Part shown: positions 3,784 through 17,446 of the stretch, piece after piece | How positions within the stretch are numbered: the first letter of the stretch is position 1 | How the letters are laid out: every line of letters begins with the position of its first letter | IMG/VR virus record: IMGVR_UViG_3300045051_000139 | Span: 1-47,438 of that record | DNA length: 47,438 bases | Reading direction: 5' to 3' (one strand) | Source: a virus | Program-made: the position numbers and the translations under genes | The notes under the pieces: model-generated | Seen by the model: only the letters and a program-made list of their open reading frames with translations | Databases searched by the model: none | Told to the model about the DNA's origin: nothing

Positions 3784-3856
3784 GCTTGTATAAAGTTGCG
3801 ACCTAGCCCAAGGTGCGCCCGGAGGATTCGCTCGTCCTACCGTCCGTCGGATCCAC

Positions 3857-3885
3857 TAGATAATACAAGTAACCGCTTGTATATT
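3857..3885 (+). promoter_or_regulatory. early promoter P1 with operator in the spacer
   Basis: TAGATA and TATATT are 17 bases apart. The spacer carries the inverted repeat TACAAG-N6-CTTGTA (3864-3881), which overlaps the -10 box. The same arrangement recurs at four other places in the rightward block. P1 would drive the gene at 3966 with a leader of about 75 bases. Confidence 0.7.
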
Positions 3886-3965
3886 GAAATTACCGCACAG
3901 ACACGATAACGACGGTGATGTACAGCACGGACGCTACCCAACCTAATCACTTGAGGTAGCCCAAA

Positions 3966-4484
3966 ATGAAAAACCTTTCAGTAGTATTTACCGACTTAGA
4001 AGAAGCCTACGGTGTAGTCGAAAACGTTTCCCGCGACTTTTTCCTGGTGTTGCGAGAGGAAGACGTGAACGACGTAGAGCATCTGAACAAGATCGCTGCC
4101 GAGGCGTACCAGGCCAATGGGTGGAGCATGGCACGGGGGCGCCCGGCAGAAGGCGCGACCGAGAAGCCCGCTCCGGATGTCGTCAAGCAGTACCTGTCCT
4201 ACGCTCGCCGCGGCTTCGCGCTCAAGCTGGACGTGAAGTCCTACGAGACCATGTACAAGCTGAAGGAAGCGATCGCGACGCCACCGGTGAAAGTGGCGGC
4301 GAACGACGCCGATAAGAAGCCGGAGCAACACCCTACGTTCGCCAAGAGTTCGACCTGCGTTGCGATTGGCGCACTGTGGGAGCACTTGCCGCCGGATGTA
4401 CAGGCCGAGTTCGATAACGAGGTGTTGAAGCTCTTGGCACGGTTCGGTAAGAAGGTTACCGGCACCCTGGGCGCCACCGGCTAA
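3966..4484 (+). CDS. hypothetical early protein
   Basis: A 172-residue soluble protein and the first gene of the rightward early block, directly behind P1. I recognise no domain. The N-terminal half is acidic (REEDVNDVEHLNKIAAEAY). The middle (VKQYLSYARRGFALKLDVKSYETMYKLKEAI) looks helical. The C-terminal part (ALWEHLPPDVQAEFDNEVLKLL) is also helical. GAGG lies upstream of the ATG. The gene stands alone between P1 and a terminator, which fits an abundantly made early protein, perhaps a host-takeover factor. That is inference only. Confidence 0.75.
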   Translation: MKNLSVVFTDLEEAYGVVENVSRDFFLVLREEDVNDVEHLNKIAAEAYQANGWSMARGRPAEGATEKPAPDVVKQYLSYARRGFALKLDVKSYETMYKLKEAIATPPVKVAANDADKKPEQHPTFAKSSTCVAIGALWEHLPPDVQAEFDNEVLKLLARFGKKVTGTLGATG

Positions 4485-4485
4485 A

Positions 4486-4501
4486 GGTTATCCGGATAAC
4501 G
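4486..4501. repeat. copy 2 of GGTTATC-NN-GATAACC palindrome
   Basis: GGTTATCCGGATAAC starts two bases after the stop codon of the gene at 3966 and ten bases before a terminator hairpin. The last base differs from the perfect palindrome. Confidence 0.7.
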
Positions 4502-4510
4502 ATTAAAACT

Positions 4511-4534
4511 AACCCCACTTCGGTGGGGTTTTTC
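4511..4534 (+). terminator. rho-independent terminator
   Basis: ACCCCAC-TTCG-GTGGGGT forms a 7-bp GC-rich stem on a stable tetraloop, followed by a T run. It ends the single-gene transcript of the 3966 gene. Confidence 0.88.
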
Positions 4535-4561
4535 TTGCCCGACGAACGGTGAAAAGATCAC

Positions 4562-4590
4562 TAGACAATACAAGTGACTGCTTGTAATCT
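4562..4590 (+). promoter_or_regulatory. early promoter P2 with operator in the spacer
   Basis: TAGACA and TAATCT are separated by 17 bases. The operator TACAAG-TGACTG-CTTGTA (4569-4586) is a perfect 6-bp inverted repeat and overlaps the -10 box exactly as in P1. It would drive the small-gene cluster from 4629. Confidence 0.72.
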
Positions 4591-4628
4591 ACCTACATCG
4601 AAACGCAAAACACAACGGAGTGACAGAC

Positions 4629-4856
4629 ATGACTAACGATCTTCACCGCGCAATGACTACCGCCGAACTGGAAGCGTTCCGCGACATGGTGGCGCTTGCT
4701 GAATCCGCTGTAAGCCTGTTCACGATCATGGGCGGCGAAGCTACCTACCTCGGCGCGGGCCGCGTCAGCATCACTGTAGCCGGCCTGAAAACCATAACCT
4801 CCGGCTCTTATCTGATGAAGAACATGAACACCTTCCTCGAGGGTCGCCGTCCTTAA
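4629..4856 (+). CDS. hypothetical small early protein
   Basis: A 75-residue protein without a recognised domain. It is helical at the N-terminus (TTAELEAFRDMVALAESAVSLF) with a Gly-rich centre. The ATG at 4629 follows CGGAGTG at good spacing. An in-frame GTG at 4620 would overlap the ribosome site and is rejected. It is the first gene after P2. Confidence 0.65.
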   Translation: MTNDLHRAMTTAELEAFRDMVALAESAVSLFTIMGGEATYLGAGRVSITVAGLKTITSGSYLMKNMNTFLEGRRP

Positions 4857-4872
4857 TCAACCTGCCCACCTC

Positions 4873-4893
4873 AAGCCCCTTAACTGGGGCTTT
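4873..4893 (+). terminator. possible weak terminator
   Basis: AAGCCCC and GGGGCTT form a 7-bp stem, but the following T run is only three bases. It may be partial, as genes continue downstream on the same strand. Confidence 0.5.
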
Positions 4894-4941
4894 GCAGATA
4901 CCAGCCCGGTTCGCCGGCCCACCAACCCTAGGAGAATCGAC

Positions 4942-4977
4942 ATGATTACCTTACTCATCATCCTCCTGCTGTTCTGA
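4942..4977 (+). CDS. 11-residue hydrophobic peptide ORF
   Basis: ATG follows TAGGAGAATCGAC, a strong ribosome site, and the frame encodes MITLLIILLLF before a stop. The peptide is almost entirely Leu/Ile. It could be a membrane micropeptide or a leader affecting the next genes. The ribosome site is better than expected by chance, but the coding evidence is thin. Confidence 0.35.
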   Translation: MITLLIILLLF

Positions 4978-5030
4978 TGCCGGGCCCGCTGATGCGGGAT
5001 TTGTCGGTACTACCTAACGGAGATCCAACC

Positions 5031-5120
5031 ATGTTCGCTTTGCTCATCTTCTACAGCTTCATGCTCCGCGAAAACAAACCGACGAAATTCAAACCTGTTC
5101 GCCACAATCCAACGGAGTGA
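5031..5120 (+). CDS. 29-residue membrane-anchored small protein
   Basis: An ATG after CGGAGATCCAACC opens a frame with a short hydrophobic N-terminus (MFALLIFYSFML) and a basic tail. The stop lies seven bases before the lipoprotein gene, whose own ribosome site overlaps it. This arrangement repeats the style of the neighbouring tiny genes. Confidence 0.45.
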   Translation: MFALLIFYSFMLRENKPTKFKPVRHNPTE

Positions 5121-5126
5121 CCAACC

Positions 5127-5501
5127 ATGAAACGCCTTCTCGCCTCACTCGCAATCATCACCCTCTCCGGGTGCTCGACCATCATGAACGACCGTATGAC
5201 CGACGTGCAGGTCACGTCCGAGCCATCCGGTCAGCACTTCAGCATTACCGACGAAGATGGTCAGCGCGTCGCTACAGGCGTCACGCCGGCTAAAGTTACC
5301 CTGGACGCTGCAGCGGGTTTCTTCGACGGGCAGACCTACCAGGTGGCATACGATAAAGGCCCGACCGTGGAACTCGACTCGCACGTCACTGGCTGGTACT
5401 GGGTTGGCTTCATTATCCTGCCAGTGGCGTCGGCTATGCTCGCCGATCCTATCTCCGGCGATATGTTTTCGCTTCCTGATAACGTGAATGGGACTTACTG
5501 A
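5127..5501 (+). CDS. phage-encoded lipoprotein
   Basis: A 124-residue lipoprotein. The basic N-terminus and hydrophobic core lead to the lipobox LSGC, so the mature protein starts at Cys16 and would be lipid-anchored. The body has a PEGA-like stretch (VTSEPSGQHFSITDEDGQRVATGVTPAKVTL). A hydrophobic segment follows near residues 88-106, then DPISGDMFSLP, a layout seen in small bacterial and phage lipoproteins. Expression early in infection suggests a change to the host envelope, for example superinfection exclusion, but no experiment or specific family proves this. GGAG precedes the ATG. Confidence 0.8.
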   Translation: MKRLLASLAIITLSGCSTIMNDRMTDVQVTSEPSGQHFSITDEDGQRVATGVTPAKVTLDAAAGFFDGQTYQVAYDKGPTVELDSHVTGWYWVGFIILPVASAMLADPISGDMFSLPDNVNGTY

Positions 5502-5502
5502 A

Positions 5503-5898
5503 ATGAGCATGACAGCAGTTAACGCAGGGCTGACCGCAGCAAGCGCGGCGAACAACGCCATAGCTCAGCAGGCAGCGCACCGTGCTCGGGTCGATCGCTG
5601 CACAGTATTCGAAAGCCGATTTGACGTAGCCAGGGCGTCCGTAGCCGAGAAGCAGGAGTACGCCTCGTGTGTTGAGACGCTTTACCCAATGCCGACCACG
5701 GAAGGCGAGTCCCAAATACTGAAGGGCGGAATCGTAATTCTACTGGCCGCCATGGTCATCGGTATGATTTACGGCTGGAAAAGCAGTAGAGACGCTGAGG
5801 GGGTAATCCTCTGCGGCCTTATGTTCCCTGTTTTCGCAGCCCTCGCTATTTTCGTTATCGGCCTGATAGTCGCCGGCGTTGGATACCTGTTCTCTTAG
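5503..5898 (+). CDS. membrane protein, two transmembrane segments
   Basis: A 131-residue protein with an Ala-rich N-terminus, two cysteines in the middle, and two hydrophobic helices near the C-terminus (GGIVILLAAMVIGMIYG and VFAALAIFVIGLIVAGVGYLF). The ATG at 5503 lies next to the lipoprotein stop, so both are probably made together and may act at the same membrane. The function is unknown. Confidence 0.72.
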   Translation: MSMTAVNAGLTAASAANNAIAQQAAHRARVDRCTVFESRFDVARASVAEKQEYASCVETLYPMPTTEGESQILKGGIVILLAAMVIGMIYGWKSSRDAEGVILCGLMFPVFAALAIFVIGLIVAGVGYLFS

Positions 5899-5906
5899 GA
5901 GCAATC

Positions 5907-6032
5907 ATGAAAAAGCGCCCCGTTAAACCTAAGATGTCAAAAGTCAACACCAGCGACTGTGCCGAAGGCCAGATGCATGAGGCCGCAGCGCAACGAGTTG
6001 TGAAAACCATGCCAGGAGGATTTATAGCGTGA
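5907..6032 (+). CDS. 41-residue basic small protein
   Basis: The ATG follows TTAGGAGCAATC. The product starts very basic (MKKRPVKPKMSK) and ends at a TGA that overlaps the GTG start of the next gene. The overlap and good ribosome site support a real gene. No function is suggested. Confidence 0.6.
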   Translation: MKKRPVKPKMSKVNTSDCAEGQMHEAAAQRVVKTMPGGFIA

Positions 6033-6289
6033 AGCACACAATGAAAAGCGTTATGTCGGCTCTTGAGCGGGCCAAGGCGGACGGCGATAGAAGGTTGCCG
6101 GTTATGACTTCTAACCAATGCCACGCCCTGGCCGTAGAACTGAACAAAGATGAAGCGGAAACGCTCCGAGAGCAGCTCCAGGAAGCCCGCAAGCTTCTCG
6201 ATATCGCGAGCGTCCGGCTTGCCACATGGCTGACGTACGCAGAGGAGCCGCGTAAACAGATCATCGAGTTTTTGGAGCGAACCCGGTGA
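6029..6289 (+). CDS. small coiled-coil protein
   Basis: An 86-residue, mostly helical protein (DEAETLREQLQEARKLLDIASVRLATWL) starting at a GTG in a GTGA overlap. The GCCAGGAGGATTTATAGC upstream is a strong ribosome site. Its centre has heptad-like Leu spacing. The function is unknown. Confidence 0.7.
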   Translation: MKHTMKSVMSALERAKADGDRRLPVMTSNQCHALAVELNKDEAETLREQLQEARKLLDIASVRLATWLTYAEEPRKQIIEFLERTR

Positions 6290-6444
6290 CCCTCCAATGC
6301 CCCAAGTGCGGTAACCCGGACGTGATACGTATGAGCAGCCTGCGCATTATCCACTGCCCGGATTGTCATACCGAATCGCCCTGGCCGTTGAAGGACGGCC
6401 AGAAGCCTTTGATCAATACCAGCCGAGGAGATCGGAAGAAATGA
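6286..6444 (+). CDS. 52-residue zinc-ribbon protein
   Basis: A GTG-initiated frame overlapping the previous stop encodes CPKCG and, 20 residues on, CPDC. The four cysteines form a classic zinc ribbon. It also ends in an ATGA overlap with the DUF551 gene. It may bind nucleic acid or a host protein. Confidence 0.7.
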   Translation: MTLQCPKCGNPDVIRMSSLRIIHCPDCHTESPWPLKDGQKPLINTSRGDRKK

Positions 6445-6647
6445 GCGAATGGATCAGCGTTAAAGAAGGTATGCCTGCGGAATGCGCATCAGTATTGGTT
6501 TCAAACGAAGGCGGAGCCGTTGCAAATATGTACTACGACGAGGGGAAATGGTTCGCTGACGGTTTCCTAAGCTCGAAGATCCCAAACATCGCTTACACCG
6601 GAGAAATTACGCACTGGATGCCCCTACCTGATCCTCCGAAACCCTAA
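6441..6647 (+). CDS. DUF551 family protein
   Basis: A 68-residue protein with the family pattern: WISVKEGMP at the start, a central VLVSNEGG, and THWMPLPDPP at the end. DUF551 proteins are common in phages and prophages; their function is not known. The ATG at 6441 follows GAGGAGATCGG. The longer frame upstream is rejected because it would overlap the zinc-ribbon gene. Confidence 0.88.
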   Translation: MSEWISVKEGMPAECASVLVSNEGGAVANMYYDEGKWFADGFLSSKIPNIAYTGEITHWMPLPDPPKP

Positions 6648-6664
6648 CCGTTCGACGGACCTAC

Positions 6665-6693
6665 AAGCAATCGCAAGTTTCGTGTTGTATAGT
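6665..6693 (+). promoter_or_regulatory. early promoter P4 with operator in the spacer
   Basis: AAGCAA and TATAGT are 17 bases apart. The spacer operator is CGCAAG-TTTCGT-GTTGTA (6672-6689), an imperfect version of the P1/P2 palindrome in the same register relative to the -10 box. It lies upstream of the gene at 6728. Confidence 0.6.
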
Positions 6694-6727
6694 GGCGTCA
6701 CACAGTAAACGAATAAGGAGAAGGATT

Positions 6728-6952
6728 ATGAAACGTTTTCTTTTGATGAACATCGGCTGCATCGAGTGCGGCGTATTCTCGAACGTTGTCGGTCTGTATG
6801 AGACTGAGGAAGCAGCAAACGCGGACGGCGAGAAGTGCGGAGAGCATCTGCATTGGCGTGACGGCGGCCAGAATAGCTTCGAAGTGTTCGACCTTGAAGC
6901 GCCGCAGGCCCCAGAATACGCAGCGGCTATACGCGGAGAATCAGTTGAATGA
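6728..6952 (+). CDS. hypothetical small protein
   Basis: A 74-residue acidic protein with CIEC near the N-terminus, a further cysteine, and HLHWRDGG. A metal site is possible but not clear. The ATG follows AAGGAGAAGGATT. It begins a chain of overlapping genes behind P4. Confidence 0.7.
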   Translation: MKRFLLMNIGCIECGVFSNVVGLYETEEAANADGEKCGEHLHWRDGGQNSFEVFDLEAPQAPEYAAAIRGESVE

Positions 6953-7119
6953 ACCGCTTCAAACCGGAACAGACCGTCCGCATTAACGACACGCAGAGCG
7001 AGTACCACAAGTGCCTGGCGCGTGTCGTGAAGGTCGGTACGAAGAGCTACGACGTAACGGTAGGTGCCACCCGCCTGCGCGTCGTCCCTGAACAACTGCT
7101 AGGAGTACGCAAGCCGTGA
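6949..7119 (+). CDS. 56-residue hypothetical protein
   Basis: An ATGA overlap with the gene before and a GTGA overlap with the gene after frame this 56-residue product. Alternating hydrophobic residues (ARVVKVGTKSYDVTV) suggest a small beta-barrel, SH3- or KOW-like, but this is a guess. Confidence 0.65.
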   Translation: MNRFKPEQTVRINDTQSEYHKCLARVVKVGTKSYDVTVGATRLRVVPEQLLGVRKP

Positions 7120-7316
7120 ACAAGAAACCATATGCTTGGGTCGCGATAGGTATGCGCGACGGAGACGGGGATCCTCTGAGCGATTGCATCCGGTGGACTA
7201 AGGCGGAGGCGGCATACGTAGCGACCACTTACCGGAACGGCCTAAAACGAGATCGCCCGGGGTACGTTAAAGAGCTTTTCCTAGGCGAAGATGTAGTAGC
7301 CGGAGAGAAACCATGA
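7116..7316 (+). CDS. 66-residue hypothetical protein
   Basis: It starts at a GTG in the GTGA overlap, preceded by TAGGAG. The product is a small mixed alpha/beta protein (AYVATTYRNGLKRDRPGYVKELF). No family is recognised. Confidence 0.65.
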   Translation: MNKKPYAWVAIGMRDGDGDPLSDCIRWTKAEAAYVATTYRNGLKRDRPGYVKELFLGEDVVAGEKP

Positions 7317-7402
7317 TCACCCGCGCACAGGCTGAAGCGTTATTGACCCTGGCCGAGTCGCTGGAAGCGTGCGCCGCCTTGATCCCAAAGCAGGAAACCT
7401 GA
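7313..7402 (+). CDS. 29-residue helical peptide
   Basis: An ATGA-overlapped ORF encodes an amphipathic helix (AQAEALLTLAESLEACAALI). The CGGAGAGAAACC upstream fits a ribosome site. Gene reality rests on position and overlap. Confidence 0.45.
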   Translation: MITRAQAEALLTLAESLEACAALIPKQET

Positions 7403-7403
7403 C

Positions 7404-7472
7404 ATGGATGACGCCGACTTCATGTTCCTTACCGTGCTCTGCCTAATTGCAATCGCGTTCTACTTCGCCTAG
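7404..7472 (+). CDS. 22-residue transmembrane peptide
   Basis: It starts two bases after the previous stop and encodes an acidic N-terminus followed by one membrane helix (FLTVLCLIAIAFYF). It resembles the other single-span micropeptides in this block. Confidence 0.45.
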   Translation: MDDADFMFLTVLCLIAIAFYFA

Positions 7473-7480
7473 GAGGCGCC

Positions 7481-7663
7481 ATGCTTCAGCCGCCAGTATC
7501 TGACTTAACCCCATGGCTGCCCGGCCACTGGATCACGCAAACCGGGTACGCACTGAACGAAAAGGATGTAGAGGTCGGCGTCAAAGACGACCGCCGCTGC
7601 GTAGATATGCAGACCACCGTGTCTGTAGTGGATTCGATAATGGAAAAGGTGATGCGCAAATGA
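7481..7663 (+). CDS. 60-residue hypothetical protein
   Basis: A strong TAGGAGGCGCC precedes the ATG. The product has a Pro/Trp-rich start and an acidic middle. It ends in an ATGA overlap with the next gene. No known domain. Confidence 0.62.
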   Translation: MLQPPVSDLTPWLPGHWITQTGYALNEKDVEVGVKDDRRCVDMQTTVSVVDSIMEKVMRK

Positions 7664-8025
7664 ATATCGATTGGTATGGAAACGGTCTGCCGCCGGTTGG
7701 CGTTGAGTTCGAGTGGCGCTACGGCGACCACGCATGGAAGAAAGGTATCGCGCTTTATATCGGCAGCGTGTACGCGATACTTCGTTCCTATGACGCGGAG
7801 CAGCATTACTACCTGCGTGACATGCAGTTTCGACAATTGCGTACTCCAGAGCAGATCGCCGAATATAAGCGTTTGCACGAGATCAGGAACGCCTGCACCG
7901 CGATCAATTCAAAGGTAGCTGACTACAACGTAAACCTAGATTGCAGCGCAGCGATGCGCGCCGCTATCGAAGCGATGATAGACGCCGGCTACCGCAAATT
8001 CGAAATCGTCAAGGAGGATGTATGA
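7660..8025 (+). CDS. hypothetical protein
   Basis: A 121-residue protein. The N-terminal half has beta-rich character with many Trp and Tyr (VEFEWRYGDHAWKKGIALYI). The C-terminal half is helical (SAAMRAAIEAMIDAGYRKFEIVK). Phage proteins of this plan are common, but I cannot name the family. Start and stop both form ATGA overlaps. Confidence 0.72.
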   Translation: MNIDWYGNGLPPVGVEFEWRYGDHAWKKGIALYIGSVYAILRSYDAEQHYYLRDMQFRQLRTPEQIAEYKRLHEIRNACTAINSKVADYNVNLDCSAAMRAAIEAMIDAGYRKFEIVKEDV

Positions 8026-8309
8026 CCAACCTGGTATTGACACGCAAAGCCGGCCAAGCGGTGCGGCTGATCATCGACGGCGTAGCGGAATACGTTGACA
8101 TCCTCGATGTGTGCGGTGGGTTCTGCAAAATGCGGATCTTGTCCACGCTCCAGGTTGAACGCGTCCGGTTCCGTGACTCCCTGCGAATTGCTGAAGGGAT
8201 CAGCGTCCAGGTTGTGGACCTGGCCAAAGGCCACGCAAAGCTCAATTTCACCGCACCGCGGGAAGTACAGATCCTGCGTACAGAACTGATAAAGGAGAAG
8301 GAAGAATGA
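8022..8309 (+). CDS. CsrA/RsmA-like protein with two fused domains
   Basis: CsrA is a homodimeric RNA-binding regulator of about 60 residues that recognises GGA motifs in leaders. This 95-residue protein opens with LVLTRKAGQ, matching the CsrA start LILTRRVG, and runs on as CKMRILSTLQVERVRFRDS, which aligns without gaps to the CsrA beta4-beta5 region. From about residue 56 a second unit (ISVQVVDLAKGHAKLNF, then TAPREVQILRTEL) aligns again to the CsrA C-terminal half. The conserved Arg of VHREE is matched in both units (FRDS and LRTE). A single-chain pseudo-dimer is a reasonable inference. A strong AAGGAGG and an ATGA overlap set the start. It could regulate phage or host mRNAs. Confidence 0.75.
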   Translation: MTNLVLTRKAGQAVRLIIDGVAEYVDILDVCGGFCKMRILSTLQVERVRFRDSLRIAEGISVQVVDLAKGHAKLNFTAPREVQILRTELIKEKEE

Positions 8310-8503
8310 CATTTCCATGGTGGACTCTTTATCTGCTCAGCTTTGATTTCGCTGTGCGCCTTACTCTTTCAGGAGTGGCTCTCACGATAGTAACTACGTG
8401 CCCCGCATTCGAAAAATGGAAATGGCAGCGTAAAGCCATTATTTCGACAGGACTGCTGACAGCATTAGGGTTCCTGCTCGGAATTTGGTCTGCGCCGCCA
8501 TGA
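8306..8503 (+). CDS. small membrane protein
   Basis: A 65-residue protein with two hydrophobic helices (WTLYLLSFDFAVRLTLSGVAL and IISTGLLTALGFLLGIW) joined by a basic loop. It is translationally coupled to the CsrA-like gene through an ATGA overlap. The function is unknown. Confidence 0.68.
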   Translation: MTFPWWTLYLLSFDFAVRLTLSGVALTIVTTCPAFEKWKWQRKAIISTGLLTALGFLLGIWSAPP

Positions 8504-8817
8504 ACCGCTATCCCTGCCGCTGCAGGCGCTGCGATGGCCGCAGAACACTTACGCAGCTACCAGAGAACATGCGCAACGGCTGCAAGTGCAAAGCGTACCG
8601 GGGAGCTCGAGCAAAAGGCATAGAGCCGATCGTGCATTGCGACTGCGGCGGCACGTACCGGGTAGATTGGTATCGCAAGAAGAAAGAACACAAACAACTG
8701 GGGTGCAAATGCTCGGGCTTCCCGTTCGACAACGGTACCCACCGCAAAGGCAGTTCCAGCCCATCGAACGGGTGGTACTGCATCCATAACGTGAAAGGAG
8801 AAGGAAATGCACACTAA
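8500..8817 (+). CDS. Cys-rich zinc-binding phage protein
   Basis: A 105-residue basic protein with about eleven cysteines in pairs (CRCRRC, GCKCKAYRG, HCDCGG, LGCKCSG). HRKGSS and a late Cys-Ile-His follow. Such zinc-ribbon proteins are frequent in early regions of phages. They probably bind nucleic acid, but no role is established here. The ATG at 8500 overlaps the previous stop. Confidence 0.72.
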   Translation: MNRYPCRCRRCDGRRTLTQLPENMRNGCKCKAYRGARAKGIEPIVHCDCGGTYRVDWYRKKKEHKQLGCKCSGFPFDNGTHRKGSSSPSNGWYCIHNVKGEGNAH

Positions 8818-9067
8818 AGCACCCTGGAAAGTTGTAGAGAATGGCGGCCGCATGGTCGGTGTCATGTCTAAAAACGATTGGGTCGTCTATAAAGCCGGGC
8901 AAGACCGGATGTCGACTGAAGAGATCGAAGCTAATGCCCGCTTGATCGCCGCCGCACCGGATCTACTGGAGGCACTCCACGGCGTCCTGCGCGTAGCGGA
9001 TCGCGCCACGGATGAATTCGACGCAGCTCGCGCTGCTATCGATAAAGCTACAAGCAATAGCAATTAA
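8807..9067 (+). CDS. conserved phage early protein (IEANARLIAAAPDLL type)
   Basis: An 86-residue protein with the recognisable sequence IEANARLIAAAPDLLEAL, found in many phage and prophage early proteins of unknown function. The N-terminus (APWKVVENGGRMVGVM) also fits that group. AAAGGAGAAGG precedes the ATG. Confidence 0.8.
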   Translation: MHTKAPWKVVENGGRMVGVMSKNDWVVYKAGQDRMSTEEIEANARLIAAAPDLLEALHGVLRVADRATDEFDAARAAIDKATSNSN

Positions 9068-9072
9068 TCCAC

Positions 9073-9101
9073 TTGACATACCTTGTGCCGCTCTCTACCA
9101 T
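9073..9101 (+). promoter_or_regulatory. early promoter P5, without the operator
   Basis: A consensus TTGACA and TACCAT are 17 bases apart, immediately after a stop codon and upstream of the gene at 9137. Unlike the other rightward promoters it lacks the TACAAG/CTTGTA palindrome, so it may be controlled differently. Confidence 0.65.
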
Positions 9102-9136
9102 CTGCGGCACACCTTAACCGAAAAGGAACTTGCAAC

Positions 9137-9550
9137 ATGTCGATCGAAGCCCTGATCCAAGCCCATATCCAAACGCTGCTTGAGAACACCGAAGCCGTCA
9201 AGCTGCTGACCCTCTCCCTGGCCGGCCGTACGCCTACCGCTGAAAAGGCGAAGGTTGATCCGAAGCCGAAAGAAGAACCTAATACCGAAGTGAAAACTGA
9301 AGTCAAGGAAGAACCGAAAGCGGATCCGAAAGACGAAGACGTTTCTACCCTCGGCGTTCCCTACGAAACTGTCCGCGCATTGGTGCTCAAACTGGCCCCG
9401 ACGCAGCGTGACGCGATCAAGGCGCTGAACGCCAAGCACGGTATTGCGAACCTCAAAGTGCTTCTGGACAAAGAAGACGACTTCAGCACCGTGAACGACC
9501 AGGCGAAGCTGGAAGCCGTTTACGCCGATCTGCAGGCACTGGAGGCGTAA
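9137..9550 (+). CDS. hypothetical protein with charged Lys/Glu/Pro linker
   Basis: A 137-residue protein. A helical N-terminal domain (ALIQAHIQTLLENTEAVKLL) is joined by a disordered Lys/Glu/Pro linker (residues about 35-70) to a helical C-terminal domain (RALVLKLAPTQRDAIKALNAKHG). The C-terminal domain resembles short phage modules placed before DUF2800 nucleases. A link to recombination is inferred from position only. The ATG after AAAGGAACTTGCAAC is preferred to upstream alternatives. Confidence 0.72.
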   Translation: MSIEALIQAHIQTLLENTEAVKLLTLSLAGRTPTAEKAKVDPKPKEEPNTEVKTEVKEEPKADPKDEDVSTLGVPYETVRALVLKLAPTQRDAIKALNAKHGIANLKVLLDKEDDFSTVNDQAKLEAVYADLQALEA

Positions 9551-9553
9551 GCC

Positions 9554-9778: not shown

Positions 9779-9780
9779 TA

Positions 9781-11337
9781 ATGGGCACTCACGCACTACT
9801 TTCCCCATCGGGTATGCCAGCAGCCATTCGCTGCTTGGCTAAGCCGCACCGGGAACGCGGGTTGCCCGACCAGTCGAGCAGCTTTGCGGACGAAGGCACC
9901 GCAGCGCATTTCCTGATGGAACAATGCCTGCTCGAAAACAAGGACGCTAAAGACTTTCAAGGTCTGCGCATCCAGGTAAAAGACGGCTTAACCGAGTTCC
10001 ATACCTCCGGACAATATCCGGTCGGGCTCGACATGATCGGACCAATGCAGAAGGCTTTGGATTACGTTCGGGATGTCGCCGATGGCGCGACGATCTACAC
10101 CGAACAGAAGCTCAGCATTGCGCACATCACCGGAGAGCACTGGCACAAGGTCACAGGCGCTGTCTGCTTCAAGAATGACGCCGGCCAGTACGTCGACTTC
10201 GACAACGGCGATCTATATGGCGAAGACGAAGTAGAACCGGCCACCGGCACCACTGACGTTTGGATCATCAAGGGCAGTGTTGCCCACTCGATCGATCTTA
10301 AGTGGGGAATGGGCGTCCAAGTTTTTGCCAAGGATAACGAGCAGCAGGAAATGTACACCGACGCCGGGCTGCAGGAGTTTGACTTCGTAGGCGAAGTTGA
10401 AGAGATCCATTTGCATATCCTTCAGCCGCGTTTGCAACACTTTGACGAACACATCATGACTCGCGCAGAACTGGATGCGCGTATCGATCTGATCCGTAAA
10501 GCGTCCAAGGAAATCGCGTTCACGCCTAGCGAAATGCTTCCAGCGACACCCGGCGAGAAGCAGTGCAAGTTCTGCAAGCGCGCAGCGACATGCAACGAGC
10601 GTACCGATCACACTATGGAGCTAATCGTGGGCGAATTCGTGGATCTCGATAAAGGTTTCGTCAAGGTTCAGATAGAACAAGCCGAGAAGCTGCTTGCGCA
10701 GAGCTTCGGGGTGAAGCCGGCAGCTGTCGAATTGGACTGGGAAGCCAATAGCGAGCACTACCCGTTCTTCACCGTCAAGAAGCCAAGCATTCGGCCATCG
10801 CTGGAAGCGGCAACCGAAGCGGTAGCCACGGCTGACGATGAGCGTTTGGCGACCCTGATGGACGCCGCCGACATGATCGAAGGCTTTGCCAAAGCGGTAC
10901 GCGCTGAAATTGAGCGGCGCCTATTGGCCGGCAAGTTCACCGATGCTCGCTATAAACTGGTCGAAGGTCGGCAGAGTGCCCGTAGCTGGACCAGCGAGGA
11001 GGAAGCTGAAGCCGCGCTGAAGGCGATGCGCTTGAAGGTCGACCAAATGTACGACTTCAAGCTGATCAGCCCTACAACGGCGGAGAAGGTCTTGAAGGAA
11101 GCCAACCCACGCAAGTGGAACAAGCTACAGCCTTTGATTGGCCGTAGCGATGGCAAGCCATCTGTAGCACCGGCCAGCGATAAGCGTCCTGCGCTCAACC
11201 TGGCGATTGCCGAGCAGTTTGAAGATCTGCCGGCGGAAGTAGAAGAGTTCAAAACGGCTAATGAGCAGATCATTGAAGCACTCGTCGCTGTAGAGCAGGA
11301 AACCGTTGTCGAAGATAACTTCGACGATCTCGTGTAA
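9781..11337 (+). CDS. DUF2800 protein, Cas4/RecB-like PD-(D/E)XK nuclease
   Basis: A 518-residue member of the DUF2800 group, phage nucleases related to Cas4 and AddB. Residues near the start (SSFADEGTAAHFLMEQ) match the helix entering the nuclease fold. SIDLKWG supplies the D-x-K of the active site. A cysteine near residue 18 plus CKFCKRAATC around residue 260 would form an iron-sulfur cluster. The C-terminal part is helical. With the DUF2815 gene next door it forms a recombination/DNA-processing pair found in many phages. It probably resects DNA ends. Confidence 0.88.
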   Translation: MGTHALLSPSGMPAAIRCLAKPHRERGLPDQSSSFADEGTAAHFLMEQCLLENKDAKDFQGLRIQVKDGLTEFHTSGQYPVGLDMIGPMQKALDYVRDVADGATIYTEQKLSIAHITGEHWHKVTGAVCFKNDAGQYVDFDNGDLYGEDEVEPATGTTDVWIIKGSVAHSIDLKWGMGVQVFAKDNEQQEMYTDAGLQEFDFVGEVEEIHLHILQPRLQHFDEHIMTRAELDARIDLIRKASKEIAFTPSEMLPATPGEKQCKFCKRAATCNERTDHTMELIVGEFVDLDKGFVKVQIEQAEKLLAQSFGVKPAAVELDWEANSEHYPFFTVKKPSIRPSLEAATEAVATADDERLATLMDAADMIEGFAKAVRAEIERRLLAGKFTDARYKLVEGRQSARSWTSEEEAEAALKAMRLKVDQMYDFKLISPTTAEKVLKEANPRKWNKLQPLIGRSDGKPSVAPASDKRPALNLAIAEQFEDLPAEVEEFKTANEQIIEALVAVEQETVVEDNFDDLV

Positions 11338-11369
11338 GAAATACCAACGACATATACTGAGGATTTACC

Positions 11370-11918
11370 ATGAAACATACTTTCCAAAACGCCCGCATTT
11401 CCTTCCCAAACATCTTCGAACCGAAGGCATCCGAAAGCGGTTCGCTGCAGTTCAGCGCGGCTTTCCTCTTCGACCCCGCTCACCCAGGTATCGCCGGACT
11501 AGATGCGGTGATCGACCAGGTGGGCAAAGCCAAGTGGGGCGACAAGTGGGGCGCGGTTAAGAAGGAACTGAAGGCGGGCGACAAGCTGCTGACCCACAAC
11601 GGTGACAGCAAAGCCTCCCTGGCCGGCTACGAAGGCAATCTGTACTTCAACGCCTACAACACGGTGCGTCCTACTGTCGTGGACCGCGATCGTAGCCCCC
11701 TGGTGGCCGCAGACGGCAAACCGTACTCCGGCTCCTACGTCAACGTCATCATTGACGTATGGGCGCAGGAGAACAAATACGGCAAGCGCGTTAACGCCCA
11801 GCTTCAAGGGATTCAGTTCGTCAAGGACGGCGAAGCGTTCTCCGGCGGCGGCACCTCGGCAGACGCCAGCGATTTCGAAGAGATTGCCGAAGGCGCGGAC
11901 GCGGAAGACCTTGCCTAA
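11370..11918 (+). CDS. DUF2815 single-stranded DNA-binding protein
   Basis: This 182-residue protein starts with TFQNARISFPNIFEPKA, the usual opening of DUF2815, and has the OB-fold-like core (YVNVIIDVWAQENKYGKRVNAQLQGIQF). The tail is acidic (EEIAEGADAEDLA), as in other SSBs that contact partner proteins. The DUF2800-DUF2815-polymerase order is typical. It likely coats ssDNA during replication and recombination. Confidence 0.88.
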   Translation: MKHTFQNARISFPNIFEPKASESGSLQFSAAFLFDPAHPGIAGLDAVIDQVGKAKWGDKWGAVKKELKAGDKLLTHNGDSKASLAGYEGNLYFNAYNTVRPTVVDRDRSPLVAADGKPYSGSYVNVIIDVWAQENKYGKRVNAQLQGIQFVKDGEAFSGGGTSADASDFEEIAEGADAEDLA

Positions 11919-11920
11919 AA

Positions 11921-11936
11921 GGTTATCCGGATAACC
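11921..11936. repeat. copy 3 of GGTTATC-NN-GATAACC palindrome
   Basis: A perfect 16-base palindrome two bases after the stop of the DUF2815 gene and six bases before a terminator. This is the same placement as the copy at 4486. Confidence 0.75.
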
Positions 11937-11941
11937 ATTCG

Positions 11942-11968
11942 AAAAGCCCGGCTTGCGTCGGGCTTTTT
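11942..11968 (+). terminator. rho-independent terminator
   Basis: AAAAGCCCG and CGGGCTTTT form a 9-bp stem around an 8-base loop, followed by a T run. It separates the SSB operon from the next promoter. Confidence 0.88.
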
Positions 11969-11991
11969 GTTGACCGCTCGTCGGGATACGC

Positions 11992-12020
11992 AAGACAATA
12001 CAAGTATCACGTTGTACAGT
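11992..12020 (+). promoter_or_regulatory. early promoter P3 with operator in the spacer
   Basis: AAGACA and TACAGT are 17 bases apart. The spacer carries TACAAG-TATCAC-GTTGTA (11999-12016) in the same register as P1 and P2. The context ACAATACAAGT is identical to P2. It drives the operon leading to the DNA polymerase. Confidence 0.7.
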
Positions 12021-12055
12021 TCACCTATCGAAACCAAACAATAGGGAGAAGGGAA

Positions 12056-12382
12056 ATGACTTTCAGGTGTTCAGACCATGTTCGTATTGCTGATGATCTC
12101 GGTTACAGCATGTCGCACTTCACAAAAGGCTGTGAAGCTATCGTCCAATATTCGTATTTCGATTGCTTCGGCCACGGGAGCAAAATCGAATATTGTGTTT
12201 TGCTGAAAGGTAGCGGCTCCTGCTCTTGGTATAGAGAAGACCAACTGACCCTTATCGCCCAACAGCAGAACGCTCTGCATGTGCAGTGGATAGAAGAACT
12301 CCCGCCCCGGCTTCAGGATCGAGATGGGTTTATGGGCGGGTATTGGAAAGGCTTTGAAGCCGGTTTGAGGGCTGCAAAATGA
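12056..12382 (+). CDS. hypothetical phage protein
   Basis: A 108-residue protein with a beta-rich N-terminal half (KIEYCVLLKGSGSCSWYREDQLTLI), several cysteines, and a helical end (GYWKGFEAGLRAAK). Proteins with a CSWYREDQLTLI-like stretch are common in phages, without a known role. A strong AGGGAGAAGGG precedes the ATG. Confidence 0.72.
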   Translation: MTFRCSDHVRIADDLGYSMSHFTKGCEAIVQYSYFDCFGHGSKIEYCVLLKGSGSCSWYREDQLTLIAQQQNALHVQWIEELPPRLQDRDGFMGGYWKGFEAGLRAAK

Positions 12383-12495
12383 ACATCACATTCAGCATCC
12401 AGTGCTACAAGAAGCTCCGCGCCAAGGGGTACAAACCCGCCGCCGCGCTCTATGCAGCCAAGTTCTACAAATCCCGCTATCAGTTCATCGTTTAG
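12379..12495 (+). CDS. 38-residue basic peptide
   Basis: It overlaps the previous stop by ATGA. The peptide is very rich in Lys, Arg and Tyr (YKKLRAKGYKPAAALYAAKFYK), which suggests nucleic-acid contact or simply a small helix. No family is known. Confidence 0.5.
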   Translation: MNITFSIQCYKKLRAKGYKPAAALYAAKFYKSRYQFIV

Positions 12496-12506
12496 GAATC
12501 GCCGCC

Positions 12507-12668
12507 ATGCAATTTCAGACACTCACGCCTATCCTTCTGCCCCACGGTTATGTCGACTGGGTTCGCCCATGGCGCGTTCCTGAAGGAGGGCCGGTGTACC
12601 TGTATGGTGAAGACTTCAGCAGCCCTTATTGCCCCATCATTATCGAGGTGATCAATGACAGCGTTTGA
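12507..12668 (+). CDS. 53-residue hypothetical protein
   Basis: A small Pro/Tyr/Trp-rich protein (LLPHGYVDWVRPWRVPEGG). The ATG at 12507 follows AGGAATCGCCGCC. Its 3-prime end overlaps the next gene by 14 bases. Confidence 0.55.
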   Translation: MQFQTLTPILLPHGYVDWVRPWRVPEGGPVYLYGEDFSSPYCPIIIEVINDSV

Positions 12669-12807
12669 ACAAGGCTACGCGGCCTTCCTTAAAGGCTTGC
12701 AGCGCGACGAGAACCCCTTTGACGCTGAGACCTGTTCCTTCTCCATGAAGCGTTGGGCTGACGGCTGGAACAAGGCCTACCGCGCACGGCAGGAGAAGCA
12801 GACATGA
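12655..12807 (+). CDS. 50-residue hypothetical protein
   Basis: The sequence FEQGYAAFLKGL and later MKRWADGWNKAYRA match the ribosome-modulation-factor-like pattern often seen in short phage proteins (a G-x-x-A helix, then a W-x-x-G-W helix). The role is unknown. Stop and next start overlap (ATGA). Confidence 0.6.
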   Translation: MTAFEQGYAAFLKGLQRDENPFDAETCSFSMKRWADGWNKAYRARQEKQT

Positions 12808-12902
12808 TTATTTTCATTATCGGCGTTTTGCTTATCTCGGTCGGCGTATCGCTATTTGCGGGTGCCATAGTACGGGCCGCAGATGATAGGGACGAGTTAT
12901 GA
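12804..12902 (+). CDS. 32-residue membrane peptide
   Basis: One hydrophobic helix (IIFIIGVLLISVGVSLFAGAIV) and a short acidic tail. ATGA overlaps on both sides support translation. It matches the other single-span micropeptides of this phage. Confidence 0.55.
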   Translation: MIIFIIGVLLISVGVSLFAGAIVRAADDRDEL

Positions 12903-13387
12903 CCGGAATAAGACTGGTAGAAGCACGGTGGGGCGTCGAATTCTGGAAACTGGTATCTGATTTCGCCGAGCAGGGGCTATCCCGTTTCGATACGGCTAGG
13001 GCATTAGGGTATTCCCCCCAAGGTTTCTGCCACCTGCTCTCTCGCACACCCTCTAAAGATCCCTTCGATCCCTCCTCGCGCTCACTGGCGTACCTGAAAG
13101 ATACCGGGGAGAACTTTCGCCAAGCCTTGGAGCGCATGTCCCTTGAACAACGCAGCTGGGCCTACGCTGCCCGCGCGATTGGGTACAGCGACGGGCACAC
13201 CTTGAAAAAGGCCGCACGGCACCGAGGCATAACCGTGGAGATGAATTCCAAACACCCTGGGCGCCCCCGGCTGCATCCAGTTCCCGAAAAACGCAGTGAC
13301 TTAACGCTCAACTGGCCGAACTGGTCTGAGGTGTACGCCATGGGCGGCCTCCCAGTTCCTGAGAAATGGAAAAGGAAAAAGGCATGA
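12899..13387 (+). CDS. helix-turn-helix-like DNA-binding protein
   Basis: A 162-residue basic protein with two helix-turn-helix-like segments: SRFDTARALGYSPQGFCHLL (about 27-47) and AARAIGYSDGHTLKKAARHRG (about 85-105). A Pro/Arg-rich linker follows, then a tail with Trp residues (NWPNWSEVYAMGG). It lies directly upstream of the polymerase and overlaps its start, so it may act at the origin or as a transcription regulator. The family is not recognised beyond this. Confidence 0.72.
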   Translation: MTGIRLVEARWGVEFWKLVSDFAEQGLSRFDTARALGYSPQGFCHLLSRTPSKDPFDPSSRSLAYLKDTGENFRQALERMSLEQRSWAYAARAIGYSDGHTLKKAARHRGITVEMNSKHPGRPRLHPVPEKRSDLTLNWPNWSEVYAMGGLPVPEKWKRKKA

Positions 13388-14457
13388 ACCTCGATAAATG
13401 CATTTTCCTCGACACAGAAACATTCTGCGAAACGCCCATCAACAACGGGACGCATCGTTATGCAGAAGGCGCCGAGATCATCATGTGGCAGTGGGCGGTC
13501 GGCGAAGGCGAAGTGATTATTCGTGATGGGGATGAAGACGTTTCGGATCTAATGGAACTACTGACCGATCCGTCTTACGAGAAGGTGATCCAGAACAGTG
13601 CGTTCGACCGTACCGTAATGACTCACGCGATAGGCTTCACGATTCCGGTAGAAGAGACGTTCGATACGATGGTGTGCGCTATGGCTCACTCGTTACCAGG
13701 CGCTTTGGAAAAGTTGGGGGATATCCTCGGGATCGCGAAGGACAAGGCGAAGGACAAGGCGGGTAAAGCGTTGATCCAGTTGTTCTGCAAGCCCCGGCCC
13801 AAGAACCAGATCCTCCGGCGCGCTACTCGCGAAACGCATCCCGTCGAGTGGGAAGCCTTTCGCGAGTACGGGCGTCTCGACATCGAAGCTATGCGTGAGA
13901 TCTACAAAAAGCTGCCGCGGTGGAATTACCGGGGGTTCGAGCGCGACCTGTGGTGTTTAGACCAGAAGATTAACGAGCGAGGAGTAATGCTCGACATCGA
14001 CCTGGCCCACGCGGCTATCCGTGCCAGTGAGAGAGCGCAGAAGCAGTTAGCGAAGCAGGCTCACGATATGACATCCGGCGCTGTGACCAGCGCCAACCAG
14101 CGTGATCGAATGCTTGAACATATCCTCGAAGAGTATGGCATTGCACTCGCCGATTTGAAGGGCTCGACAATCGAAAAGACCCTGGCCGACGTGGACATGC
14201 CTTTCGAACTAAAAGAACTCCTGATGGTGCGCGTGGAGGCTTCTCGCACGAGCGTATCGAAGTACAAGCGGGTTATCTCAGGATCTAGCAGCGACGGACG
14301 TATGCGCGGCACGGCGGCCTTCTGTGGCGCCCTCCGAACTGGAAGGTGGGCGGGTCGGCTTCTGCAGCTGCAAAACTGCCCCCGTCCTACGATCAAAAAT
14401 AAAGAGATCGATCTATGGATCGAAGCCCTTAAAGCGGATGCGGAAGACCTAGTATGA
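13384..14457 (+). CDS. DNA polymerase A, N-terminal part (3-5 exonuclease and thumb)
   Basis: This 357-residue part carries the DnaQ-type exonuclease: Exo I FLDTETF (about residue 9), Exo II with NSAFD, and Exo III YGRLDIEAM. It continues into the polymerase thumb and the palm entry (AFCGALRTGRWAGRLLQLQNCPRP). In related phage polymerases the sequence runs on without a break. Here it stops at TGA inside an ATGA, and the next frame, shifted by -1, begins at the same bases. I choose the ATG at 13384, which overlaps the previous stop, over one at 13366. The fragment is either a separate subunit or the front half of a frameshifted gene. Confidence 0.85.
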   Translation: MNLDKCIFLDTETFCETPINNGTHRYAEGAEIIMWQWAVGEGEVIIRDGDEDVSDLMELLTDPSYEKVIQNSAFDRTVMTHAIGFTIPVEETFDTMVCAMAHSLPGALEKLGDILGIAKDKAKDKAGKALIQLFCKPRPKNQILRRATRETHPVEWEAFREYGRLDIEAMREIYKKLPRWNYRGFERDLWCLDQKINERGVMLDIDLAHAAIRASERAQKQLAKQAHDMTSGAVTSANQRDRMLEHILEEYGIALADLKGSTIEKTLADVDMPFELKELLMVRVEASRTSVSKYKRVISGSSSDGRMRGTAAFCGALRTGRWAGRLLQLQNCPRPTIKNKEIDLWIEALKADAEDLV

Positions 14458-16265
14458 CAACGGTGATGGAAGCGTGCAGCAGCGCGGTTCGCGGCCTTAT
14501 AACCGCGCCCCCTAAAAAGAAATTGGTTATAGCAGATTTGTCAAATATTGAGGGCCGTGTACTCGCATGGCTGGCCGGTGAAGAATGGAAGCTTCAGGCG
14601 TTTCGTGAATATGACACGCAGATGGGTCTAGACGGGCGCTGGTACATCGGAGACGAGCTGCGATCGGCTGTCCTAGCCGGTACGCCGATTCCTGTCGAGC
14701 TGAACGCCAAGGGCGATCCGGTAACGCTCGGCTCCGACCTCTACAAGCTCGCCTATGCGAAAGCTTTCGGCGTAAAAGTGGAAGACGTGGACGGTATGAT
14801 GCGCCAGATCGGCAAGACCATGGAACTGGCTTGCCTGGGCGGCGATACCCTTGTACTGACGAAGGAGAAAGGATACATTGCCATTCGGGATGTAACTACA
14901 GACGTTCAGTTATGGGATGGTGAAGAATGGGTGCAGCATCAGGGGCTCTTGGCTCGCGGTGTTCGGCAGGTTGTGAATGTTTCAGGCATTCAGGTAACGC
15001 CGGATCATTTGATCAAAACCGGGACAACCTGGAAGCCGGCAGGGCTACTCGCTACAAACGAAAGCATCCTCTGCCAAGCATTGGAGACAGGTTCGAAGAG
15101 CTTACCGTGGTCGGACACAACATCGGTCCATCGGGAGGCCCGTCAGCCCTGGTTACCGTCCAGTGCTCCTGCGGCGCTGAGCCCCATGCCGTTTATGACT
15201 ACAATTTGCGCAACGGTAAATCGACTCGTTGCAATGCTTGCGCAAAGATCAAAGCAGGCCACTGGCGGAAAAACTTTTGGGCCTACGCCGACATCGTTCC
15301 TTCCGATGACCATCGACGGCGTTTGCTCAACAGAATTTCAGCCTGCCTCAACCGGTGCCACAATCCAAAAGATGCCAACTTCAAGAACTACGGCGCCCGC
15401 GGTATCCAAGTGTTCGAACCGTGGCGCACTGACCGTCGTGCCTTCTTGGCTTACCTCGTCACCCTTAAAGATTGGGATAAAGCGGCTTATGAGATCGACC
15501 GCGAAGATGTTGACCGCGGTTACGAGCCGGGCAACCTCAGGTTCATTACCAGAACCCAAAACGCCGGTAATCGACGAAAAGTCAGCACTATGCAAGCCAC
15601 CATCTTGCGACTCGAATCTGAGAATCGAGACCTACGACATCGCCTTAAGCGGGCCGAGGAACTGCTTCTCGATTCTCTCTGAACACGGGCCATTGATCGC
15701 CCACAATTGCGGCTACGCCGGCGGTGTAGGTGCCTTTATTACCTTCTCGCTGGCGTTCAACATCGACTTGGAAGCAATGGCCGAGAAGGCGGTTAGCACG
15801 ATTCCGAAGACCACCCTTGACGAAGCCTCTAGCTTTCTCGAATGGCAGCTAGGCCAGGGGAAGAGTCAATATGGGTTGAGCGATCAAGCGTTCATCGTCT
15901 GTGATAGCTTCAAGCGCCTGTGGCGCGAGGCGCACCCTAACGTGGCGAGCTACTGGAAAGAGCTGGAGAACGCCTGTAGGAACGCGATTAACAACCCCGG
16001 ACAGACGTTGACTTGCCGTATGCACAAAGTCCGTCGCGACGGCGCTTGGCTTCGAGTGATGTTGCCTAGCGGTCGATACCTTTGCTATCCGTCGCCGCGC
16101 GTAGAGGACGATGGGCAAATTACGTTCATGGGTATCAACCAATATTCCCGAAAATGGGAGAGATTGCGCACATATTCTGGGAAATTGGCGGAAAACACTA
16201 CACAAGCAGTTGCAAGGGATGTACTTGCGCACTCAATGCCGAGGATCGAAACATGGCGCCCATAG
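14454..16265 (+). CDS. DNA polymerase A, central palm/fingers part, containing an intein
   Basis: This 603-residue frame carries polymerase motif A (ADLSNIEGR, about residue 27). Motif B is interrupted by an intein: the flanks GKTMELA and [10 protein letters not shown] join into the usual phage motif. After removal of the 292-residue intein about 311 residues remain. The frame ends at TAG after [11 protein letters not shown], before motif C, which lies in the next frame. A GGAAG upstream of the ATG at the junction with the N-terminal part allows separate initiation. Splicing and assembly with the other two parts would be required for activity, unless the breaks are sequencing errors or frameshift sites. 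Confidence 0.85.
14832..15707 (+). mobile_element. intein in DNA polymerase motif B, with an out-of-frame endonuclease
   Basis: The intein begins with Cys (block [11 protein letters not shown]) and has block [10 protein letters not shown] with the conserved His. It ends with block F ([16 protein letters not shown]) and block G (LIAHN) before Cys+1. The 292 residues would excise to join ELA to CGYAGG. In the polymerase frame the middle part (about 15080-15620) is Ser/Thr/Pro-rich and shows no endonuclease motif, while the -1 frame there encodes an HNH-like nuclease. Splice residues are intact (C1, TxxH, terminal His-Asn, C+1), so the intein is probably active. The insertion site is a highly conserved polymerase motif, as usual for inteins. 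Confidence 0.88.
14927..15682 (+). CDS. HNH-like homing endonuclease nested out of frame in the intein
   Basis: In the -1 frame the segment [12 protein letters not shown], with CSCG and CNAC, matches the zinc-finger-like front domain of many phage homing nucleases. The core follows: [23 protein letters not shown], then [21 protein letters not shown] and QNAGNRRK, a well-known phage endonuclease pattern. A Leu-rich coiled tail ([21 protein letters not shown]) ends at a TGA and overlaps intein block F. Only sequence from about 15075 looks protein-like; the first 50 residues may be untranslated or junk. The ATG at 14927 has only a weak GGTGAAG. A -1 frameshift from the intein N-part is an alternative start mechanism. 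Confidence 0.75.
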   Translation: MGAASGALGSRCSAGCECFRHSGNAGSFDQNRDNLEAGRATRYKRKHPLPSIGDRFEELTVVGHNIGPSGGPSALVTVQCSCGAEPHAVYDYNLRNGKSTRCNACAKIKAGHWRKNFWAYADIVPSDDHRRRLLNRISACLNRCHNPKDANFKNYGARGIQVFEPWRTDRRAFLAYLVTLKDWDKAAYEIDREDVDRGYEPGNLRFITRTQNAGNRRKVSTMQATILRLESENRDLRHRLKRAEELLLDSL

Positions 16266-16447
16266 AGTTTGAATCCGGCCTGGAGATCGTCGTAACCGTA
16301 CACGACGAAGTGATCTGCGAAGCACCCGATGATCCCGCTTTCTCCCATTCCATCCTGTCAGCCCTCATGGCCCAAGGCGAAGACTGGACAGAAGGCTTAC
16401 CGCTCGCCGCCGCCGGCTTCGAAGCGTATCGCTACCGGAAAGGTTGA
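16253..16447 (+). CDS. DNA polymerase A, C-terminal part with motif C
   Basis: This 64-residue frame begins with [21 protein letters not shown]. The VHDE is motif C, with the second catalytic carboxylate of family A polymerases, and the rest is the standard C-terminal helix. In relatives it is continuous with the palm. Here it is in the -1 frame relative to the preceding part. An ATG with GAGG eight bases upstream permits independent translation, and it overlaps the TAG of the middle part. If not an error, the enzyme would consist of three chains. Confidence 0.7.
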
Positions 16448-16472
16448 CTACAAGTCGAATCTTGCATAAGCT
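16444..16472 (+). promoter_or_regulatory. promoter P6 with operator, upstream of the methyltransferase
   Basis: TTGACT and TAAGCT are 17 bases apart, starting at the end of the polymerase gene. The spacer holds TACAAG-TCGAAT-CTTGCA (16449-16466), the fifth operator-like palindrome of the rightward block. It sits about three bases further from the -10 box than in P1-P3. Confidence 0.6.
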
Positions 16473-17435: not shown

Positions 17436-17446
17436 GGAGTATTGAA

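Follow-up and report, generated by a model that had tools for sequence, protein, structure and literature searches.

Introduction

In the temperate Streptomyces phage phiC31 one repressor acts at conserved inverted repeats (CIRs) lying over many early promoters, and in T4-like phages promoter early stem-loop (PeSL) cassettes serve as standard promoter modules carried along with accessory early genes. Here we analyse a 47.4-kb phage contig (a virus record in IMG/VR style, IMGVR_UViG_3300045051_000139, taken over all its 47,438 nucleotides and hereafter called the window), in which the gapped palindrome TACAAG-N6-CTTGTA recurs on early promoters and a gene at 3214 encodes a Cro/YdaS-like protein, named REG below. 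These palindromes are probably operators of REG, which would place several early units in one regulon.

For the Cluster A mycobacteriophages L5 and Bxb1, the part of the literature used here (PMC9283540) describes one phage repressor and many stoperator sites across the genome. YdaS of the E. coli prophage CP-933P, its Cro equivalent, is presented in the consulted portion of PMC8630535 as a Cro-like helix-turn-helix (HTH) protein footprinting two divergent promoters, for which the authors considered both inverted and direct repeats. YdaT of the same prophage, a member of a different family, reads TTGATT-N6-AATCAA (PMC9986795, likewise an extract).

Results

Palindromes on the early promoters

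The first-pass annotation of the window claimed that five rightward promoters share the palindrome with up to three mismatches. At a tolerance of one mismatch, four sites are present, at 3864, 4569, 11999 and 16449 (sites A, B, E and F in Table 1), where 400 dinucleotide shuffles gave 0.05 on average and never more than 1. The first two are exact, the other two carry one mismatch each, all are on the rightward strand and all fall within the early region (3000-20900); the rest of the window contains no site at up to two mismatches. Among all gapped palindromes with 6-bp arms and gaps of 0-12 in about 1.8 kb of intergenic DNA, TACAAG with a gap of 6 ranks first. The fifth promoter, at 6672, does not stand as a plain palindrome: it has three mismatches, a level at which the scan is noise (14 sites versus a shuffle mean of 10.07, standard deviation 4.06, with 15 of 100 shuffles reaching 14), and the annotation's tolerance was accordingly too loose. 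The site does stand as a three-half-site element, C, whose sequence TACAAGCAATCGCAAGTTTCGTGTTGTATAGT (CAAG-N6-CAAG-N6-GTTG, 6664-6687) is almost letter-identical across 23 contigs including the window.

The predicted placement between a -35-like and a -10-like box 17 bp apart was seen at the four clear sites. At 3864, 4569 and 11999 the palindrome occupies the 17-bp spacer and extends two bases into the -10-like hexamer; at 16449 it overlaps the -35 end of the promoter TTGACT...TAAGCT. These promoter placements were read directly from the sequence and rest on position, orientation and conservation. The promoter at 9073 (site D) had rightly been said to lack the palindrome, though half-sites are present there and kept in relatives. 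Taken together, the four sites and the triple site C span 12.6 kb, each on the promoter of a separate unit.

Conservation among relatives

Relatives were collected as 35 loci from a search with REG and 14 from a search with the single-stranded DNA (ssDNA)-binding protein; among the 34 IMG/VR contigs, 11 were taken as single loci, 8 of these as part of the record only. In 42 whole records, at up to two mismatches, summed counts gave 104 palindrome matches versus 34 for a reversed control pattern. A match occurs in 38 of the 42, and the remaining four are fragments of 4-19 kb. Over the 35 loci L005-L039 a gap of 6 yielded 33 matches and other gaps 0-3 each, but gap 0 yielded 10. Two loci whose REG relatives are weak (L038 and L039, at 33-40% identity) lack any site at up to one mismatch.

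Sites were classed by upstream context (a CTAG or a TTGAC test). The A/B class, with CTAG upstream, comprises 37 sites from 24 contigs, and its arms are almost invariant over 22 distinct spacers; the E class has 22 sites in 22 contigs and the F class 21 sites in 18 contigs. A few of the matches classed by these tests are doubtful (for example G013 17183, with no clear promoter site, and G033 10628, F-like), and six "other" and two "C" matches were left out of the class statistics. Across relatives, arms and the 6-bp gap are conserved, while spacer letters and downstream genes vary.

Searches in the reverse direction were made with the operator-promoter strings. The exact A/B string occurs in 12 of all IMG/VR contigs, and REG is encoded in 12 of 12. 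Scanning IMG/VR with the E string returned 26 stretches and three previously unseen contigs. REG is missing from two of these, which are pieces of 12-13 kb; the remaining one, G044 (43.8 kb), recovered solely with the E string, encodes REG (E = 2.7e-48) and also has a C element, a D promoter, an F element and, adjoining REG, a CTAG-N6-CAAG-N6-GTTG variant.

The Cro/YdaS-like protein REG

REG scores above the family threshold of PF15943, YdaS_toxin (38.3 bits, cut-off 30), and under that of P22_Cro (26.6 bits, cut-off 30.2). Its AlphaFold2 model is all helical, with a mean predicted local distance difference test score (pLDDT) of 89.3 and an extra N-terminal helix pair at residues 3-26. Nearest to the model are the folds of Xfaso 1 Cro and N15 Cro, with TM-scores by target of up to 0.81 and best Foldseek E values of 0.007-0.01 (none at or below 0.001). 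Profile search finds Xfaso 1 Cro, XPH1 and N15 Cro as the closest solved structures (E from 1.2e-6 to 0.012). All 17 long relatives have REG, and its median identity is 59%. One contig, G037, holds two different REG-like genes (C1:18-323 and 44356-44568), plus an altered A-type site.

Caulobacter phage GB2A and other distant phages

Of 58 window frames compared with Caulobacter phage GB2A, the only shared ones are REG (52% identity over 60 aa), the primase-helicase, an exonuclease, the ssDNA-binding protein, both DNA polymerase parts, an endonuclease-like stretch inside the polymerase gene, a helicase and a VRR-type nuclease; REG is the only transcription regulator among them. An unbiased search of GB2A for gapped palindromes placed TGCAAC with a gap of 6 on top, with five intergenic sites. 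Direct search for TGCAAC-N6-GTTGCA gave 12 sites against 1.68 expected, a number reached by none of 100 shuffles; three of the 12 (2774, 19412 and 35506) lie inside annotated genes. Before GB2A's own regulator gene stands ACAAG-N6-GTTGCA. The half-site letters thus shift from TACAAG to TGCAAC between the two phages, with the geometry unchanged.

In Sa179lw, where a weaker REG relative is annotated cro, palindrome search brought out no dispersed regulon motif, so that the regulon is not general to YdaS-like genes. Tr60_Ab31 has no site at up to two mismatches in the 19.4-kb part scanned. The main text of the GB2A genome paper (PMC11053796) has no occurrence of "palindrom", "inverted repeat", "repressor" or "promoter", and the titles and abstract openings of the literature found do not describe the motif, which does not prove it unpublished.

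A putative regulon and its alternatives

We consider it probable that the palindromes are operators of the phage's own Cro/YdaS-like protein at 3214-3528, forming a one-repressor regulon of early units. The annotation's attribution to this protein is favoured by its presence in every long relative, by the shared geometry in GB2A and by its co-occurrence with the operator strings in the 12 A/B contigs and in G044. Repression rather than activation is suggested because the inverted repeat sits over the spacer and the -10; the "simultaneous shut-off" that had been proposed is one plausible use of such a regulon.

Several observations weigh against this assignment. Many of the contigs share ancestry, so counts over them are not independent, and the GB2A motif was first picked by eye, the unbiased run coming after. 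REG relatives at 53-61% identity keep the same operator, which means that there is no letter-by-letter covariation within the family, the letters changing only at the large step to GB2A. A further point is the poor quality of the -10 boxes; a promoter scan alone gave 3 matches versus 6.8 in shuffles, not above chance. Finally, REG's own promoter has no N6 palindrome, so there is no clear sign that REG simply regulates itself through the same site.

The rival that survives best, unlikely as we hold it to be, makes REG an activator or, like lambda CII, a dual regulator, with inverted repeats repressed and direct repeats near the -35 (D and many leftward promoters, TTG-N7-TTG) activated. E. coli YdaS possibly uses both kinds of repeat, as far as the consulted portion of PMC8630535 goes. 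At D, CTTG-N6-CTTG begins at the -35, several leftward promoters have [CG]TTG-N6-[CG]TTG there, and weak -10 boxes would fit activation. At A, B, E and F, however, the inverted repeat lies over the spacer and the -10, a position from which a Cro-type dimer would block polymerase. The 17-bp spacer also counts against an activator, being of normal length, unlike that of MerR-type promoters.

That the sites are operators read by some other protein, a second phage regulator or a host factor, appears improbable. A weak HTH match is indeed encoded at 12899-13387, but that gene occurs in 6 of the 17 long relatives versus 17 of 17 for REG, and the N6 geometry recurs in GB2A, which shares with the window no other recognised transcription factor. 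Slightly less credible still is a conserved strong promoter of the phage family whose palindrome no protein reads: the -35-like TAGACA is conserved too and related promoters have a common ancestry, but sigma-70 does not read the spacer, where the left arm sits, by sequence, the arms are kept over 22 spacers, a gap of 6 is strongly preferred, and C and F keep the half-sites in other arrangements.

Arrangement of half-sites

A third half-site usually lies exactly 10 bp from the palindrome. C and E have the order CAAG-N6-CAAG-N6-GTTG, and F has CAAG-N6-CTTG-N6-CTTG, the same order on the other strand; in A/B, CTAG occupies the place of the third half-site. Over 55 unique sites with at most one mismatch, position -10 holds CTAG 21 times and CAAG 14 times, and position +10 holds CTTG 19 times. 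Of 79 unique right flanks, 20 have [CG]TTG at +10 and 8 have it at +8, with 5 in total for the remaining offsets between 5 and 44. These counts are inflated by ancestry within a class, while the classes, four in all, are different promoters. Site D reads CAAG-N6-CAA[TC]-N7-CTTG-N6-CTTG in most relatives; in the distant G033 it reads CAAG-N7-CTTG-N6-CTTG. The leftward promoter region of the REG operon is kept in relatives sharing its leader.

Two other regularities were rejected. CTTG-N6-CTTG does not hold for leftward promoters in general, since relatives do not retain the middle CTTG seen in that of the window, and distances between CAAG/CTTG pairs over whole contigs gave a modest peak at 10 amid codon-phase noise and were replaced by the promoter-aligned counts.

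Tentatively, and with somewhat less than even confidence, we propose that REG reads a ladder of half-sites at exact 10-bp steps, with inverted and direct order mixed (three half-sites at A, B, C, E and F, four at D), its subunits stacking on one face of the DNA via the extra N-terminal helices. The ladder would be a universal socket giving accessory genes a burst followed by shut-off, with core replication wired differently by rearranged half-sites. In the predicted structure, the N-terminal helix pair lies outside the Cro-matching part and could be the contact for neighbouring subunits.

On the probable reading of the sites as REG operators, incoming DNA would carry no repressor, and transcription of the units behind A, B, C, E and F would start at once. 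Expression of the leftward operon, with REG and the primase-helicase, would then shut them off in Cro fashion, a REG dimer sitting on CAAG-N6-CTTG and a further subunit on the third half-site one helical turn away, thereby blocking RNA polymerase. The D unit with the core replication genes would stay on or come under different regulation, and accessory genes exchanged behind the standard socket would fall under the same timer.

Genes behind the putative operator-promoters

The genes behind the sites (cargo) are diverse. Eighteen gene families stand behind 22 E sites, 17 behind 21 F sites and 25 behind the 32 A/B sites with a called gene (5 of the 37 have none), and three cargo families stand behind more than one site class; this analysis left out G032 (a near-duplicate of G033 there), G041, GB2A and Tr60. 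Around E, identity to the window in 21 contigs is 0.69-0.99 from -50 to +50 and 0.21-0.43 outside. Judged by these alignments, the operator-promoter is a fixed socket: the control element stays and genes are swapped on both sides of it.

Table 1. Putative operator-promoters and associated features of the window. Starts of cargo genes are mechanical calls (start codon plus Shine-Dalgarno-like string), uncurated.
Feature	Coordinates	Strand	Details
Short leftward unit	1189-3773	-	primase-helicase, 104-aa REG (3214-3528), small gene
Primase-helicase gene, directly behind REG in leftward operon	1189..3210	-	AAA_25 + PriCT_2; same neighbour in Caulobacter phage GB2A
REG, 104 aa, Cro/YdaS-like HTH (about residues 34-86), extra N-terminal helix pair	3214..3528	-	PF15943, AlphaFold2, conservation
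Leftward promoter region, REG operon	3739..3795	-	TTGCAG-18-TAGGAT; clustered half-sites TACAAGCTTG and CAAGTGTTGTA; no N6 palindrome
Site A	3856..3885	+	CTAG-N6-CAAG-N6-CTTG; palindrome TACAAGTAACCGCTTGTA 3864-3881 inside TAGATA-17-TATATT
First gene behind A, cargo, no assigned function	3966..4484	+	2/17 long relatives
Terminator-like hairpin directly before B	4511..4530	+	hairpin scan
Site B	4561..4590	+	CTAG-N6-CAAG-N6-CTTG; palindrome TACAAGTGACTGCTTGTA 4569-4586 inside TAGACA-17-TAATCT
First gene behind B, cargo, no assigned function	4629..4856	+	0/17 long relatives
Site C	6662..6693	+	TACAAG-N4-CGCAAG-N6-GTTGTA-TAGT; half-sites CAAG 6664, CAAG 6674, GTTG 6684, 10-bp steps
First gene behind C, cargo, no assigned function	6728..6952	+	0/17 long relatives
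Site D	9051..9101	+	promoter TTGACA-17-TACCAT before core replication genes; CAAG-N6-CAAT-N7-CTTG-N6-CTTG, no N6 palindrome
Gene behind D, core replication unit	9137-9550	+	17/17 long relatives
Terminator-like hairpin directly before E	11950..11964	+	hairpin scan
Site E	11991..12019	+	CAAG-N6-CAAG-N6-GTTG; palindrome TACAAGTATCACGTTGTA 11999-12016 inside AAGACA-17-TACAGT
First gene behind E	12056..12382	+	2/17 long relatives; its relatives behind F-type sites in other contigs
Site F	16444..16474	+	promoter TTGACT-17-TAAGCT; CAAG-N6-CTTG-N6-CTTG; palindrome TACAAGTCGAATCTTGCA 16449-16466
Gene behind F, C5 cytosine DNA methylase	16500..17398	+	PF00145 42.4 bits; 4/17 long relatives

Genome layout

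Replication and accessory genes form a rightward block at about 3.9-20.8 kb, and the late genes (tail, head, terminase) run leftward at 22-47 kb. Terminator-like hairpins as a class are not above chance (14 found versus 16.7 expected). In the window and its long relatives, tyrosine integrase (PF00589) was found in 0 of 18 records, resolvase (PF00239) in 0 of 19 and HTH_3 above cut-off in 0 of 19, the repressor scan covering part of the open reading frames (ORFs). A scan of 84,980 bacterial and archaeal genomes with REG found one weak relative, in Pseudoalteromonas (48% over residues 34-89), and no prophage sign for REG. The lack of integrase and resolvase, together with this single weak match, suggests that the window phage and its relatives apparently do not lysogenise.

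Other features of the window are given here for completeness. The DNA polymerase gene (14454-16265) seems, from the reading of frames and matches only, to be split by an in-frame intein-like insert, and an endonuclease-like frame in another phase (14927-15682) lies inside it. Within the late region are a tRNA-Trp (cca) gene on the minus strand (36353-36428), an adjoining gene (36561-37118) matching a PHROG family annotated as sialyltransferase, and, between the portal and major head genes, a homing-endonuclease-like gene (phrog_314, 41044-42147; 5 of 17 long relatives). A second palindrome, GTTATC[CA]GGATAA, occurs at 929, 4488, 11923 and 34400, three of these copies directly following coding units and the other lying in the late region, and also in 8 of 35 other sequences scanned; it may be another protein's site or a boundary element.

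Discussion

Early genes of such phages are mostly unknown accessory genes that differ between close relatives, and one repressor with a portable operator-promoter would explain how a newcomer acquires its timing. The operator also offers a search handle, the gene behind it being a candidate early accessory gene. Such a regulon is directly testable in GB2A and RW, two Caulobacter phages grown in culture on a laboratory host. The half-site ladder, if true, would be an unusual mode of DNA reading for a protein of Cro size.

YdaS of CP-933P belongs, like REG, to the Pfam family YdaS_toxin (PF15943), but its setting is the lambda-type immunity region of a prophage, where it is opposed by a CI-like repressor, whereas the putative operators of the window are dispersed. 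By profile and by fold, the closest solved relatives of REG are Xfaso 1 Cro, XPH1 and N15 Cro (PDB 3bd1, 5w8y, 6on0/2hin), which align only to about residues 34-80; the extra N-terminal helix pair is REG's own. A lambda-type CI/Cro immunity switch has a CI-type partner and integration functions, and neither was found in the window phage group in the scans given above, which for repressors took in part of the ORFs.

As in repressor regulons with dispersed operators of the stoperator or CIR kind, several like sites lie on promoters of separate units. Stoperators of Cluster A mycobacteriophages, in the excerpted account, are asymmetric and stop elongation; the window sites are symmetric, lie in promoter spacers and occur in phages where no integrase was found, and so differ from stoperators. 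The likeness to the phiC31 CIRs is one of described arrangement. PeSL cassettes carry an RNA stem-loop, in place of which the window units carry a putative repressor operator. Among known arrangements, the window system is best placed as a probable dispersed-operator repressor regulon, apparently in non-lysogenic phages.

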